In this document: piece after piece, positions 8,647-24,538 of the stretch
Position numbering within the stretch: the stretch's first letter is position 1
Layout of the letters: each line of letters opens with the position of its first letter
NCBI GenBank assembly: GCA_902613845.1
Contig: CACMIW010000008.1
Span: 1 to 33,670 of the forward strand
Direction of reading: 5' to 3'
Length of the DNA: 33,670 nucleotides
Source of the DNA: an uncultured Alphaproteobacteria bacterium
GTDB lineage: Bacteria; Pseudomonadota; Alphaproteobacteria; HIMB59
Translations under genes and position numbers: made by a program
The notes under the pieces: generated by a model
Databases searched by the model: none
Told to the model about the DNA's origin: nothing
The model's input: the letters and a program-made list of their open reading frames with translations, nothing else

Positions 8647-8958
8647 TTAAAAAAATAACACCGGTAAAAAGAGGAGAAAGGAAATACCAATAATTCCGTC
8701 TGTTATTAAAGAATAAAGTTTCATTTTATTTAATTGAAAATAATCCTCATAAACTTTGCCCAGTTGAATTCTAATATGAAGCATTGATATGATAAAAAAA
8801 ATTAATAATAAAATTTTATTAGTGGAAGTAGATAATGAGATAACGAGAGAATTTACATCGGAGTAAGAACTTAAAAAAAATAAAATAAACCAATAACTAA
8901 TAGGAATTAACGCTAGATATAAAAATCTTTCTATTTTCCACTTTTGAGAAGCTTTCAT
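8647..8958 (-). CDS. sdhD: Succinate dehydrogenase membrane anchor subunit
   Basis: Second membrane anchor of complex II; helps bind haem b and quinone. The frame is open from 8973, but ATG 8958 forms a TAATG junction with the sdhC stop, the same arrangement as sucA/sucB, and yields the natural start [12 protein letters not shown] (103 aa). Three hydrophobic helices are visible: [28 protein letters not shown] and a C-terminal stretch ending at [10 protein letters not shown]. The histidine in [16 protein letters not shown] fits the haem-ligand position of the SdhD pattern HxxxGxxxxxxDY. Sequence is otherwise weakly conserved, so identity rests on this motif and on position between sdhC and sdhA. 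Confidence 0.9.
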
Positions 8959-9323
8959 TAAAATATCATCCAAGTAAAAATCAAAGTCATTATAATATTT
9001 GCTACTAGAATGAGATATGTCACTAAGTAGACATTTTTAAGATCCATTCCAATTGAAAATGACCATAAGAAATATTTAAAACCATTTAACAAATGATGAT
9101 TAAAGATAAAAAACCAAAAGACAAATATTAGCTTTATAGGTAGCAAGTTTATCAACAATGTTAATACTTGATTAAGTTGAGGAAGAAAATTTAAGCTTCC
9201 TAACCAAATTGCAAAAAAAGGCAAAGAAAAAGCAAATGCAATTACTCCTATCCTGCTGGAGATAGAAAATACCATTGTTAAAAAAGGTCTATATATTTGC
9301 AAATGTGGTGATATTGGAGCCAT
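8958..9323 (-). CDS. sdhC: Succinate dehydrogenase cytochrome b556 subunit
   Basis: First membrane anchor of complex II and first gene of the seven-gene TCA operon. The 121-residue protein opens with the SdhC signature PISPHLQIYRPFLTMVFSIS and has three transmembrane helices. The segment FNHHLLNGFKYFLW matches the helix-two HxxNGxRHLxWD pattern, with a histidine in the haem-ligand region. The start MAPISPHLQ agrees with family N-termini; no strong Shine-Dalgarno is visible. Transcription should start in the 297-bp divergent region 9324-9620, which carries an inverted repeat about 55 bp upstream of this start. Confidence 0.93.
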   Translation of the reverse strand: MAPISPHLQIYRPFLTMVFSISSRIGVIAFAFSLPFFAIWLGSLNFLPQLNQVLTLLINLLPIKLIFVFWFFIFNHHLLNGFKYFLWSFSIGMDLKNVYLVTYLILVANIIMTLIFTWMIF

Positions 9324-9376
9324 AGAAAGGCAATATATTTAAAAATGTCTTATAGTAAAAAACTATTATTTTATTA

Positions 9377-9395
9377 ATTCATGCGTTACATGAAT
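9377..9395. promoter_or_regulatory. Operator-like inverted repeat upstream of sdhC
   Basis: ATTCATG-CGTTA-CATGAAT: two perfect 7-bp arms with a 5-bp spacer, about 55 bp upstream of sdhC. The dyad size suits a dimeric regulator binding site. No regulator gene is nearby, so the factor is unknown. A role in sdh regulation is inference from position. Confidence 0.4.
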
Positions 9396-9486
9396 AAATT
9401 AAGGCTGTGGAAAAAATGTTAATCAAATTACCCATTTATTGAAATTAAGGTTCTGAAAATGCCCTATATTCAATTAAAATCCAATC

Positions 9487-9570
9487 AGGTCGTGAACATT
9501 TTTGTTTAAATGTGCCGAATCTCACCCCGCATGAGAAAGCTTTATTCATATAAAGTTGGCACCACGACCT
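9487..9570 (+). ncRNA. Candidate structured RNA or riboswitch-like element upstream of the TRAP operon
   Basis: An 84-nt stretch folds on paper into five helices. P1 is 9487-9494 with 9563-9570 (AGGTCGTG/CACGACCT, 8 perfect pairs). P2 is 9496-9501 with 9508-9513. P3 is 9514-9516 with 9558-9560, extendable to GTGCC/GGCAC at the expense of P2. P4 is 9520-9524 with 9532-9536, loop CCCCGCA. P5 is 9538-9545 with 9550-9557, tetraloop TCAT. Stems are richer in G and C than the flanks. A G-U pair in P5 (9539/9556) would be C-A on the other strand, slightly favouring the + strand. I do not recognise a known riboswitch class. It ends 50 bp before dctQ. Confidence 0.5.
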
Positions 9571-9620
9571 ATCAATATACTCTCTTTAATATGTTAATTG
9601 TCTATATATAATCTGCTGCT

Positions 9621-10148
9621 ATGTCTGCTTTGGCGCAATTATCCAAATTTATTGATCGATTTAATACAATCATAGGATATTTATGTGCTTTTTTTGTTTT
9701 CTCTATGGTCATAGTTGTATTCACTGTTGTCGTCTTAAGATATGGGTTCAATATTGGTTTTATATGGATGCAAGAGGTTTATGTTTGGCTTCATAGTTTT
9801 GTTTTTATGTTGGGTGCTGGTTTTACTTATTTAGCTAATGAGCATGTCAGAATAGACGTCTTTTACCGAGAGGCATCAAAAAAATATAAAGCTACTGTAG
9901 ATCTATTTGGAAATATTTTTTTACTTCTACCTTTTTTATATATTATTTGGAATTACAGCTATCCCTTTGTATATAGATCTTTTTTAATGGGAGAGGTTTC
10001 CAGAGAAGCGGGCGGTATGCCTGCTTTATATATTTTAAAAAGTGCAATTCTATGGTTTTGTTTAGTTTTATTTCTTCAATTAGTCTCTAATGTAATTAAA
10101 TCAATACTAACACTTTCAAACTATCATTTGTCTGATAATAAATCATGA
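9621..10148 (+). CDS. dctQ: TRAP transporter small permease (DctQ family)
   Basis: Small membrane subunit of a tripartite ATP-independent periplasmic transporter. The 175-residue protein has four hydrophobic segments (about 17-40, 55-73, 92-112 and 138-162). It shows DctQ-family features: WMQEVYVWLHSFVFMLGAG in the second segment, then NEHVRIDVFYREAS after it. ATG 9621 is the first usable start after an in-frame TAA at 9609, and no Shine-Dalgarno is visible. The stop overlaps the dctM start by 4 bp (ATGA). With dctM and the binding protein at 11571-12698 it makes a complete transporter. Confidence 0.93.
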   Translation: MSALAQLSKFIDRFNTIIGYLCAFFVFSMVIVVFTVVVLRYGFNIGFIWMQEVYVWLHSFVFMLGAGFTYLANEHVRIDVFYREASKKYKATVDLFGNIFLLLPFLYIIWNYSYPFVYRSFLMGEVSREAGGMPALYILKSAILWFCLVLFLQLVSNVIKSILTLSNYHLSDNKS

Positions 10149-11521
10149 TTAGTCCTGAAATTTTAGCAATTGTAATGTTTGTAACAACATTGGGATTATT
10201 ACTTTTCGGTTTTCCCGTTGCTTTTACACTCGCTGGAACAGCTCTTCTGTTTGGATTTTTAGGAGATGCTCTGGAAATATTTAATTTCAGAATGCTAGGA
10301 TTTTTTCCTCAACGCATTTTTGGAACAATGATTAATGAGCCCCTTGTGGCTGTGCCCCTATTCATTTTTATGGGAATAATGCTAGAAAAAACAAAAATTG
10401 CAGCCGGACTATTACATTCAATTGGAGAACTTTTTGGGACTACTAAAGGAGGTCTTGGAATAGGGGTTGTAATAGTGGGTATGTTGTTAGCTGCATCAAC
10501 AGGCATCGTTGGTGCAACAGTTGTTACAATGGGAATGTTATCTTTACCATCAATGATGAAAGCTGGCTATGATCAAAAAATAGCCACAGGTACAATTTGT
10601 GCCGCTGGCACATTAGGACAAATAATACCTCCCTCAATTGTTTTAGTTTTACTGGCAACAATTTTACAAGGCGCAAATGAAGAAGCAGCGATGTTAGTTG
10701 GTAATTTAGCTCCAGATCCGGTTACAGCAATTGATTTATTTGCTGGTGCTATTCTACCTGGATTGATGTTAGTAGTCTTATTTATAATTTTTATTTTCTT
10801 TTACGCTAGAATAAACCCATTAAGTTGTCCGCCTGTTGAGACTACCAAGTCAAGAACTGAGATATACATCGAAGCTGCTAAATCAGTTGTTCCTCCCATA
10901 ACTCTTATTGTGCTAGTTTTAGGCTCAATTTTATTTGGAATAGCTACCCCCACAGAGTCTGCATCAGTTGGAGCTGTTGGAGCTGCGATAATTGCACTGT
11001 TAAAGGGTGAATTAAATTTCAAGAATATTAAAGAGACAGCTTTAGGAACTGTAAAACTTAGTTCATTTGTATTTGTAATTTTAATTGGTGCCTCAATGTT
11101 TTCTCTTGTGTTTCGTGGTTTTGGTGGTGATGAAATGATAGAGCATTTTCTTGGAACTCTACCTGGTGGGCTTTACGCAGCACTCATTTTAGTAATGATA
11201 GTAATTTTTCTATTAGGTTTTTTCCTAGACTATATCGAAATAATTTTTGTCATCGTTCCATTAGTTGGTCCAATATTAATTGCAAACGGGGCAGACCCAT
11301 TATGGTTAGGTATTCTTATTTCACTGAATTTACAAACTAGTTTTTTAACACCTCCTTTTGGATTTTCTTTATTTTTTTTAAGAGGAGTAGCCCCAAGTAG
11401 TATTAAAACTAGAAACATGTACAGAGGCGTAATTCCCTTCATAGGAATTCAGGTATTAGCTATATTAATTGTTGGTTTTTATCCTGAAATAGCAACCTGG
11501 TTGCCAAATAAAATGTTCTGA
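10145..11521 (+). CDS. dctM: TRAP transporter large permease (DctM family)
   Basis: Large membrane subunit of the TRAP transporter, forming the transport path for secondary, probably sodium-coupled, uptake. It has 458 residues, nearly all hydrophobic segments. The DctM hallmark AASTGIVGATVVTMGMLSLP is followed by MMKAGYDQKIATGTICAAGTLGQIIPPS, and the repeated half contains GFFLDYIEIIFVIVPLVGP and FLTPPFGFSLFFLRG. The start overlaps dctQ by 4 bp. The gene ends 8 bp before a strong terminator hairpin that separates it from the convergent binding-protein gene. Substrate is set mainly by the binding protein, which looks TakP-like. Confidence 0.95.
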   Translation: MISPEILAIVMFVTTLGLLLFGFPVAFTLAGTALLFGFLGDALEIFNFRMLGFFPQRIFGTMINEPLVAVPLFIFMGIMLEKTKIAAGLLHSIGELFGTTKGGLGIGVVIVGMLLAASTGIVGATVVTMGMLSLPSMMKAGYDQKIATGTICAAGTLGQIIPPSIVLVLLATILQGANEEAAMLVGNLAPDPVTAIDLFAGAILPGLMLVVLFIIFIFFYARINPLSCPPVETTKSRTEIYIEAAKSVVPPITLIVLVLGSILFGIATPTESASVGAVGAAIIALLKGELNFKNIKETALGTVKLSSFVFVILIGASMFSLVFRGFGGDEMIEHFLGTLPGGLYAALILVMIVIFLLGFFLDYIEIIFVIVPLVGPILIANGADPLWLGILISLNLQTSFLTPPFGFSLFFLRGVAPSSIKTRNMYRGVIPFIGIQVLAILIVGFYPEIATWLPNKMF

Positions 11522-11570: not shown

Positions 11571-12698
11571 TTATGCTGATGGATAAGTAAATGGGAGACT
11601 TCTTACTCTCATGTACTCTTTTTCAGATGTATTTGTCCATCTCAGAATTGATGATCTAAATTCAACAATATGTGAGAAAAGAGCCTGAGAAACAGGGTCT
11701 TCCGCTGCTATTGAGCTACAAACCTCTCCTGCTCTTTGACCCAATGCATTCATAACTGGATCTGGTAATTGTCTCATTTGAACACCATGCTCATTAATAA
11801 GTTTTTGATACGAACTATCGTTTGCAGCTTGGAACATAGATAGAACTTCCATGTTAACTGCCTTAGTTGCGATTGTGACTAGCTCTTTAGTTGCGTCATC
11901 AAGTTTTTCCCACTCAAACATATCTATTGAACAATCTAAGATAGTTGCTGGCTCATGCCATCCTGGGTTATAGTAATACTTAGCTGCTTGGTGTAATCCT
12001 TTACCTAAGTCAGCAGCAGGACCAATCCATTCTGTTGCATCAATCGCACCTGAGGCAAGTGATGGAAGCACATCCGCTCCAGCCAAAAGAACTGTATTAG
12101 CGCCAAAAGATTTTAATACCTCTCCACCAAGACCAGGCATTCTGATTTTTAGACCTTCAAAGTCTGCAAGTGAATTAATTTCTTTATTAAACCAACCACC
12201 CATCTGGTTTCCAGTATTACCCATTGGAAGAAATTTTACACCGATAGCATTATAAGCTTTGTCTGCTGCTTCAATTCCTCCACCATAGTAACACCATGCA
12301 TTTTGTTCTTGAGCCGTTAAACCAAAAGGTAAAGCTGCAGAAAAAGATGGAGCCATACTAATGTTTGTCCAATAATAACCTGCACCATAAGCCATTTGAG
12401 CGGCTCCAGATCTTACTGCGTCCAATGACTCAAGTGGTGGTACTAATTCGCCACCATGATAAACAGTAATTTTTAGTTTATCAGAAGCATTGTTAACGTA
12501 ACTTGCAAATCTATCTATTGCTTTACCAAGACCTCCTGCTTTACCAAAAGCAGAACATGCAATCCATTCCATGTGTCCACCTGATATTGCTGGTGCTGGA
12601 AATGAAGAAACTGCTGCGGCGCCCAGTGCTGCAGCACCTGCACCTTTAAGGAAATTTCTTCTTTTCATGGTCTTATTATTCATCTTCTTTTTTGCCAT
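11571..12698 (-). CDS. dctP: TRAP transporter substrate-binding protein, TakP-like (2-oxo acid type)
   Basis: Periplasmic binding protein for the TRAP permease encoded convergently at 9621-11521. A twin-arginine signal is clear: KRRNFLKGAG (R13-R14), then an Ala-rich hydrophobic stretch ending near SFPAPAISG. In the mature part, GNTGNQMGGWF (Q165), LKIRMPG (R186) and IDATEWIGP (W224) match the ligand residues I remember for Rhodobacter TakP (Q156, R177, W215), at a constant offset of nine. This suggests a 2-oxo acid or related keto-acid ligand; the specific ligand is inference. ATG 12698 has an excellent AGGAGG at 12708-12713, nine bases upstream. The gene follows the eamA gene by 33 bp, at the end of the acetoacetate gene block. 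Confidence 0.92.
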   Translation of the reverse strand: MAKKKMNNKTMKRRNFLKGAGAAALGAAAVSSFPAPAISGGHMEWIACSAFGKAGGLGKAIDRFASYVNNASDKLKITVYHGGELVPPLESLDAVRSGAAQMAYGAGYYWTNISMAPSFSAALPFGLTAQEQNAWCYYGGGIEAADKAYNAIGVKFLPMGNTGNQMGGWFNKEINSLADFEGLKIRMPGLGGEVLKSFGANTVLLAGADVLPSLASGAIDATEWIGPAADLGKGLHQAAKYYYNPGWHEPATILDCSIDMFEWEKLDDATKELVTIATKAVNMEVLSMFQAANDSSYQKLINEHGVQMRQLPDPVMNALGQRAGEVCSSIAAEDPVSQALFSHIVEFRSSILRWTNTSEKEYMRVRSLPFTYPSA

Positions 12699-20414: not shown

Positions 20415-20489
20415 GGTTCCGTGGTGTAACGGATAGCACAAATGACTTCGGATCATTTAGTCAGGGTTCGAATCCTTGCGGAACCGCCA
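20415..20489 (+). tRNA. tRNA-Arg (anticodon TCG)
   Basis: Complete cloverleaf of 75 nt with encoded CCA. The acceptor stem GGTTCCG/CGGAACC has seven pairs. The D arm is GTGT-AACGGATA-GCAC, and the anticodon stem AATGA/TCATT has loop CTTCGGA with TCG in the anticodon position. The T arm is CAGGG-TTCGAAT-CCTTG, the discriminator G, then CCA at 20487-20489. It reads CGA arginine codons. It is alone, converges on the EF-hand gene, and has no obvious terminator. Confidence 0.97.
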
Positions 20490-24402: not shown

Positions 24403-24431
24403 TTGATGTTATTTTTACCCGTAATTATAAT
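24403..24431 (+). promoter_or_regulatory. Sigma70-type promoter
   Basis: TTGATG (24403-24408) and TATAAT (24426-24431) are separated by exactly 17 bp, the best housekeeping-type promoter I saw in the window. Start of transcription would be near 24438, just ahead of tandem hairpins. The nearest + strand genes are the small ORF at 24565 and the aminotransferase at 24691. Confidence 0.65.
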
Positions 24432-24437
24432 CAAAAA

Positions 24438-24538
24438 TAAGAGATTAATCTCTTTTTACAGCCTTATAGAAGCGGCTTTTTTCTTAGTGGGCCACTTCTT
24501 TCTTAAAGGGTTAGGACAAATTGTTCTAACCCTTTTTT
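24438..24538 (+). ncRNA. Candidate small RNA or attenuator leader
   Basis: About 100 nt bounded by a good promoter and a strong terminator, with no ORF inside. Hairpin one is AAGAGA-TTAA-TCTCTT (24439-24454) plus T3. Hairpin two is AGCC (24460-24463) with GGCT (24474-24477) plus a T6 tract. Hairpin three is the terminator at 24506-24538. AGAAGCGGC (24468-24476) can also pair, with one C-A mismatch, to GCCACTTCT (24491-24499), which would break hairpin two. That mutually exclusive pairing looks like termination control of the downstream genes, but a free sRNA is equally possible. Confidence 0.45.
24506..24538 (+). terminator. Rho-independent terminator
   Basis: The stem AAGGGTTAGGAC (24506-24517) pairs with GTTCTAACCCTT (24523-24534) over 12 positions with one G-U pair and a 5-base loop, followed by further T residues (TTTTTT in total). 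It lies on the + strand although no + strand gene precedes it, so it must end the short transcript from the promoter at 24403 or act as an attenuator. Confidence 0.85.

Follow-up and report, generated by a model that had tools for sequence, protein, structure and literature searches.

An important question raised by this locus is whether the compact multi-helix element between two divergent genes is a switch in the leader of a transporter mRNA, as originally predicted, or an RNA gene of its own. The window, i.e., the whole stretch of 33,670 nucleotides analyzed here, comes from an uncultured HIMB59-type alphaproteobacterium. Such bacteria, which we take to be the same as AEGEAN-169, are frequently found in the surface waters of the ocean, and their genomes are very small. 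On the minus strand lies sdhC (8958–9323; PF01127), encoding a membrane subunit of succinate dehydrogenase, and on the plus strand dctQ (9621–10148; PF04290) and dctM (10145–11521; PF06808), encoding the small and the large membrane subunits of a TRAP transporter. The element occupies positions 9487–9570 of the gap between sdhC and dctQ.

Fold, covariation and strand of the element

The 84-nt stretch folded with an MFE of −27.5 kcal/mol (z −5.5), against −13.2 ± 2.6 for shuffled sequences, none of which (0 of 200) was equal or better. Among 1,680 equal-sized stretches of the window, taken on the plus strand in 20-nt steps, four were at least as stable. The G+C content was 0.42, compared with 0.28 upstream and 0.24 downstream, in line with the claim that the stems are richer in G and C than the surrounding DNA. 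All five predicted helices were recovered in place in the MFE structure. P1 pairs 9487–9494 with 9563–9570 (CACGACCU), including GGUCG/CGACC; P2 is a hairpin at 9495–9506 (strands 9495–9498 and 9503–9506); P3 pairs GUGCC at 9512–9516 with 9558–9562 and encloses two hairpins, the nearly invariant P4 at 9520–9536 (UCUCA-CCCCGCA-UGAGA; strands 9520–9524 and 9532–9536, loop CCCCGCA) and P5 at 9538–9557 (strands 9538–9545 and 9550–9557, tetraloop UCAU). P2 and P3 had been proposed to exclude each other and so to form a two-state switch. Since both are present in the MFE structure with high pair probabilities (0.69–0.86 for P2 and 0.89–1.0 for P3), the claimed exclusion is absent.

Covariation was examined in alignment A3, with 27 sequences in 25 distinct rows, matched from 29 sources. 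The P1/P2 columns are misaligned in two members (L099 and L102); the covariation test counted these cells in that state, and the count of G-U and A-C cells left them blank. In this alignment, which was fitted to the structure so that its counts are biased towards it, 92.4% of cells were paired, falling to 36–45% when partners were slid by 1–3 columns, and 12 of the 28 pairs had two-sided changes (40 cells against 12.7 ± 3.4 in shuffles, with 0 of 500 as high). Further pair types showed no excess (25 against 25.2 in shuffles). The lack of covariation in homologous regions had been named as the observation that would speak against an RNA; covariation was found, far above the shuffles. Two-sided changes occurred in P1, P2, P3 and P5. 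They include a double change in P1 of L058 (GGUUA/UAACC) and three of the six modelled pairs of P5. Compensatory changes in P1, P4 and P5 had been named as support, and were seen in P1 and P5; P4 hardly varies and is therefore silent on covariation, its loop columns being invariant in alignments A1 and A2. The three most diverged members (L098, L099 and L102) have a larger arm instead of P2, and the outer helix of this arm keeps 10 of 10 pairs, three of them through two-sided changes (three sequences only; 22 of 500 shuffles as high).

The core helices contained 18 G-U against 5 A-C cells, which favors the plus strand. Mean identity across 10 lineages was 0.79 for the element and 0.98 for P4 (9519–9536), whereas the upstream flank reached 0.59 and the spacer to dctQ 0.56. 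A conserved structure on one strand, as a small RNA should have, is thereby found, and it is confirmed that 9487–9570 encodes a real folded RNA on the plus strand. Coding sequence was rejected, as the core lengths (81–94 nt) differ by amounts not divisible by three.

Distribution and relation to known RNA families

A covariance model, R1, was built from alignment A2, which holds 22 sequences and 28 pairs. These are the 22 distinct P1-bearing cores of 33 distinct stretches; the remainder were duplicates, except for the three large-arm members, which were omitted. R1 scored the RNA of the window at 90.2 bits (83-nt core, 9488–9570) and gave one match per genome in 42 of the 52 genus genomes, among them that of the window. 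No match was found in 110 further genomes of the order (162 order genomes searched in all), and a search of 385 class genomes likewise gave none beyond the genus; the order and class samples overlap, and both were scored with strict filters. The RNA is thus restricted to one genus within the genomes searched. All 10 genus genomes that are at least 90% complete carry it. In the 10 that do not, the sdhC–dctQ locus is probably unassembled: eight show neither sdhC nor the close dctQ, in G007 the close dctQ starts at base 34 of its contig, and in G008 sdhC is shortened (residues 32–121) at an apparent contig end. Among the 52, no genome has a readable sdhC–dctQ gap without the RNA. As the RNA is present wherever the locus could be read in this genus, and the genomes are small, it likely does something important. 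The exact 15-nt hairpin core also occurs in 31 viral stretches and in four class genomes outside the order, but a wider spread was rejected, as R1 scores these 35 loci at 20.1 bits or less (E 0.011, L153), which was taken as chance.

P1 is an inverted repeat, as would suit an element acting at the DNA level (a mobile repeat, a palindrome or a protein site) that folds only incidentally. The compensatory changes in branched helices, together with the G-U pairs and the single match per genome, make this explanation extremely improbable. A repeat or mobile element was likewise rejected on the single match in the window's own genome.

At the gathering threshold of Rfam 15, the whole window yielded only a tRNA (20415–20486). 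Over 9330–9640, at E up to 10, three matches to snoRNA-type and MS2 families lay far below threshold. The Rfam search that had been asked for hence bears out that the element matches no known class there. A tRNA or tmRNA was dismissed, neither ARAGORN nor Rfam having a match at the element; SRP RNA (RF00169) was dismissed with the genome's own copy at G000:C7:32904–32998, and 6S RNA (RF00013) with a 6S model that found no match in the window. Among the literature matches listed, no title or abstract describes the RNA, and the letters of the hairpin match no paper. The word HIMB59 does not occur in PMC5069720. The family is new in the sense of lying outside Rfam 15 and being undescribed among these literature matches.

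Whether the RNA might be a strongly diverged housekeeping RNA of the order, e.g., a functional stand-in for 6S RNA, was also considered. It is a single-copy RNA carried by all the most complete genus genomes, as would fit such a role, and the Rfam 6S model found nothing in five genomes from both families, an absence that says little as the same model matches just 5 of 14 control genomes. 6S RNA is a long bulged hairpin, a shape unlike 84 nt in nested three-way junctions, and SRP RNA was found elsewhere in both genomes tried. We regard the housekeeping explanation as very unlikely.

Promoters and the dctQM-leader question

The likely promoter of the RNA lies at 9453–9480 on the plus strand, with CTGAAA (9453–9458), a 16-nt spacer and TAAAAT (9475–9480), and a predicted +1 at 9487. 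Upstream regions were compared among 13 lineages, representatives of 42 distinct stretches, with upstream stretches less than 80% alike. In 10 of the 13, the first base of a TAnnnT box precedes the GG of P1 by exactly 13 nt, leaving a gap of 7 nt, whereas the next-best offset is shared by 4 of 13; the three lineages lacking the box at this offset are the large-arm members. The original prediction had placed a weak TATATT box at 9465–9470 and a start just before P1. The start is likely there, but the constant box is TAAAAT at 9475–9480. A promoter consensus scan of 9324–9640 gave two sites against 1.6 expected, which is chance level, so that the scan alone lends the RNA promoter no support. Moreover, the region holding the −10 box (9471–9486) had an identity of 0.51, not above the flank (0.59). 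A small-RNA gene should have a promoter at the RNA 5′ end, and such a promoter is seen here solely in where the −10 box stands (10 of 13 lineages). At the other end, a simple scan found no intrinsic terminator after the element in 9324–9640; a run of at least four T within 4 nt after P1 occurs in 7 of the 13 lineages, the window not being among them.

The element might instead act from the minus strand within the leader of sdhC, a divergent gene whose start lies 164 nt away. The excess of G-U over A-C cells favors the plus strand, and the only promoter-like site of the minus strand in 9324–9640 (TTTACT-16-TATATT, 9359–9332; weak, from the same chance-level scan) lies between the element and sdhC, leaving the element upstream of it. 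This makes a role in the sdhC leader highly improbable.

In the same direction as the RNA, dctQ has a −10 box of its own, TATAAT at 9607–9612, 8 nt before the ATG, with an identity of 0.87 over 9605–9612 compared with 0.56 for the spacer. TATAAT or TATACT is found 8–9 nt before the dctQ ATG in 10 of 13 lineages, and in the remaining three, comparable boxes lie at a greater distance upstream. Because of this distance, the promoter is probably leaderless, and the dctQ mRNA is probably separate from the RNA. A Shine-Dalgarno-like word before dctQ was absent in 13 of 13 lineages, a weak sign, since the window has 25 gene starts and 21 of them likewise lack one. Judged from sequence, the putative promoters of both the RNA and dctQ are supported.

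The RNA had been proposed to control dctQM, in which case a transcript starting at about 9487 would run through dctQM, and a riboswitch or protein-binding leader would govern read-through or translation. The RNA is on the same strand as dctQ, at a near-constant distance of 46–53 nt, and the two share the gap wherever both are readable. The invariant hairpin and A-rich junctions resemble an aptamer, and the missing terminator in 9324–9640 would suit a longer transcript, which possibly runs into dctQM. The binding protein of the transporter also counts for this reading: its closest solved relatives include 4pet, 5cm6, 2hzk (E 8.7e-62) and 7ug8 (E 2.1e-60), of which the 7ug8 entry is named 'Ketoacid-binding protein' and 2hzk, presumably TakP, was deposited as SmoM, which supports the description as a TakP-type TRAP system. 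The separate −10 box next to the dctQ ATG weighs against a leader. Furthermore, simple scans found no expression platform: neither a terminator in 9324–9640 nor a Shine-Dalgarno-like word in the 13 lineages, and no alternative pairing, P2 and P3 being compatible. The RNA was seen in a single gene context, and two diverged dctQ genes (59% identity; L063 and L064) do not have it. The proposed control of dctQM as a leader was consequently not upheld; a leader is rather unlikely, and the dctQM switch is the weaker of the two readings.

Two further observations concern the transporter genes. The binding-protein gene dctP (11571–12698) is on the minus strand, opposite and convergent to dctQM, and its TAT-signal match reaches 22.1 bits at a cut-off of 22.7. 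In the diverged relative L063 (725–2911 and 2962–3507), a gyrA/parC-type gene, not sdhC, precedes dctQ (59% identity), and the RNA is lacking. Elsewhere in the window, a long gap at 24403–24535 (+) has TTGATG-17-TATAAT and, about 70 nt on, a 14-pair hairpin with a T-run (24505–24535); to judge by these motifs, it may encode another small RNA, one that has an intrinsic terminator. The stretch at 24461 folds better than 9487–9570.

A probable second RNA upstream of sdhC and comparison with known systems

Six genera of a sister family (f2) have a different conserved, G+C-richer stretch upstream of sdhC, probably a structured RNA: L215:1148–1282(−), L216:1067–1238(−), L217:2086–2231(+), L218:2121–2268(+), L219:2115–2259(+) and L220:1151–1288(−). 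All six share GGAGGAACGC, CCGCCG and GTGTCTGCC. None has an Rfam match at gathering, and a search of one of them by E-value gave low-scoring matches only (best E 0.63). On the strand opposite to sdhC, the stretch has a closed multi-branch fold, which is stabler than on the other strand in five of six (−59.4 vs. −37.9 in L216) and less stable in L219. On that strand, two G-U pairs are kept in 6/6, and two-sided changes affect 5 of the 36 predicted pairs, while the covariation term of the six-sequence alignment is unfavorable (+0.5 kcal/mol). Upstream of the closing helix, TTGAAW, 17 nt, TAATTT and a further 6–7 nt were found in five of six, and L215 has TACTCT. The stretch ends 0–4 nt from the stop codon of a gene of 327–330 codons, an alpha/beta-hydrolase in both cases tested (of six). 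As this gene is convergent, the f2 RNA is no leader of it.

The f2 model, R2, had no match in G000, G029 and G030, and in 289 class genomes it found, besides G052 (in part its source), only G233 at chance level (E 0.009). R2 does not find the RNA of the window's family (f1) in the loci tried, nor does R1 find the f2 RNA; with filters off, R1 reached at best 11.9 bits (E 0.39) on the f2 loci and the diverged dctQ loci L063 and L064. Judging by the layout of these loci, we read the slot upstream of sdhC as a place for a stand-alone RNA in both families. It is a doubtful, though conceivable, further step that one ancestral RNA gene sits upstream of sdhC throughout the HIMB59 order and that its sequence and branching have turned over to the point where neither family's model now recognizes the other RNA. 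Strand, promoter placement, closing helix and a hairpin with a C-rich loop would then have been retained. If true, the order would have an RNA regulator, perhaps of central carbon metabolism, that is absent from Rfam. The same region has DnaA-box-like sites: TGTGGAAAA at 9406–9414 (−) of the window, between sdhC and the RNA promoter, recurs in all 10 f1 lineages aligned, and a TTWTNCACA box occurs upstream of f2 sdhC in five of six loci (L216–L220), L216 and L220 each having a pair spaced by 12 nt. The boxes may mark a site of replication or of regulation by DnaA; on an origin there, GC skew gave no information.

Overall, we favor, with some reservation, a stand-alone small non-coding RNA on the plus strand rather than a switch in the dctQM mRNA. 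The structure is conserved, prefers one strand and keeps a fixed position. Covariation, strand bias, the fixed TAnnnT, the dctQ −10 box and the f2 counterpart were counted for a stand-alone RNA, together with the failure to find a leader's terminator, P2/P3 exclusion or Shine-Dalgarno-like word. Counted against it were the lack of an intrinsic terminator after the element, the near-constant 46–53 nt to dctQ, the unconserved −10 region of the RNA, the chance-level promoter scan and the f1 and f2 models that do not recognize each other. The RNA would be about 84–110 nt long, transcribed from its own sigma-70-type promoter with a start near 9487, so that its first bases form P1. Its fold would consist of two three-way junctions, one nested in the other (P1 closes P2 and P3, and P3 closes P4 and P5), and would present the invariant CCCCGCA loop of P4. 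Its action would most likely be in trans, the loop contacting a protein or a few RNA targets, and dctQM would have a leaderless promoter and a transcript of its own. What we infer here is that the RNA is independent of dctQ and acts in trans, what its loop does, how long it is and where its 3′ end lies. The complement of the loop, TGCGGGG, occurs 61 times in four genomes and the reversed pattern 65 times; this lack of enrichment speaks against an antisense regulator with many targets. The search for antisense targets with TGCGGGGT gave three genome sites, one of them being the RNA itself.

For the new family, there is now a covariance model, along with its strand, a predicted start site and partners that can be tested. 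Screens for ligands that take the adjacent transporter as their guide may target the wrong molecule, and the sister family, with another RNA in this slot, is a test case for the speed of non-coding RNA turnover.

As in metabolite riboswitches, a multi-helix fold combines one invariant hairpin with variable outer stems, but the RNA has no Rfam match at gathering, and no expression platform was found. Trans-acting small RNAs with C-rich loops are known in Alphaproteobacteria, among them the CuckooRNA/CcsR and alpha-r14 families. The RNA shares their accessible C-rich loop and intergenic location; it differs in its more elaborate fold, in that no terminator was found and in loop-complementary sites that are not enriched, with the sequence compared via Rfam only. 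With the f2 RNA, it has in common the slot upstream of sdhC, the strand, a −10-like box 6–7 nt before the closing helix and a hairpin containing CCCGC (TCCGC in L219), whereas the f2 RNA is 135–172 nt long, with other sequence and branching and no mutual match of the covariance models. Among the orphan structured RNAs of 'Ca. Pelagibacter ubique', the fourth motif is described as a three-stem junction and likely a separate non-coding RNA (Meyer et al., 2009; PMC2704228). Like those RNAs, the one described here is small, intergenic and from AT-rich marine Alphaproteobacteria. As described there, the fourth motif has two bulged regions in a conserved stem and SAR11_0635/0636 as neighbors, which sets it apart from the present RNA, with its nested junctions between sdhC and dctQ.
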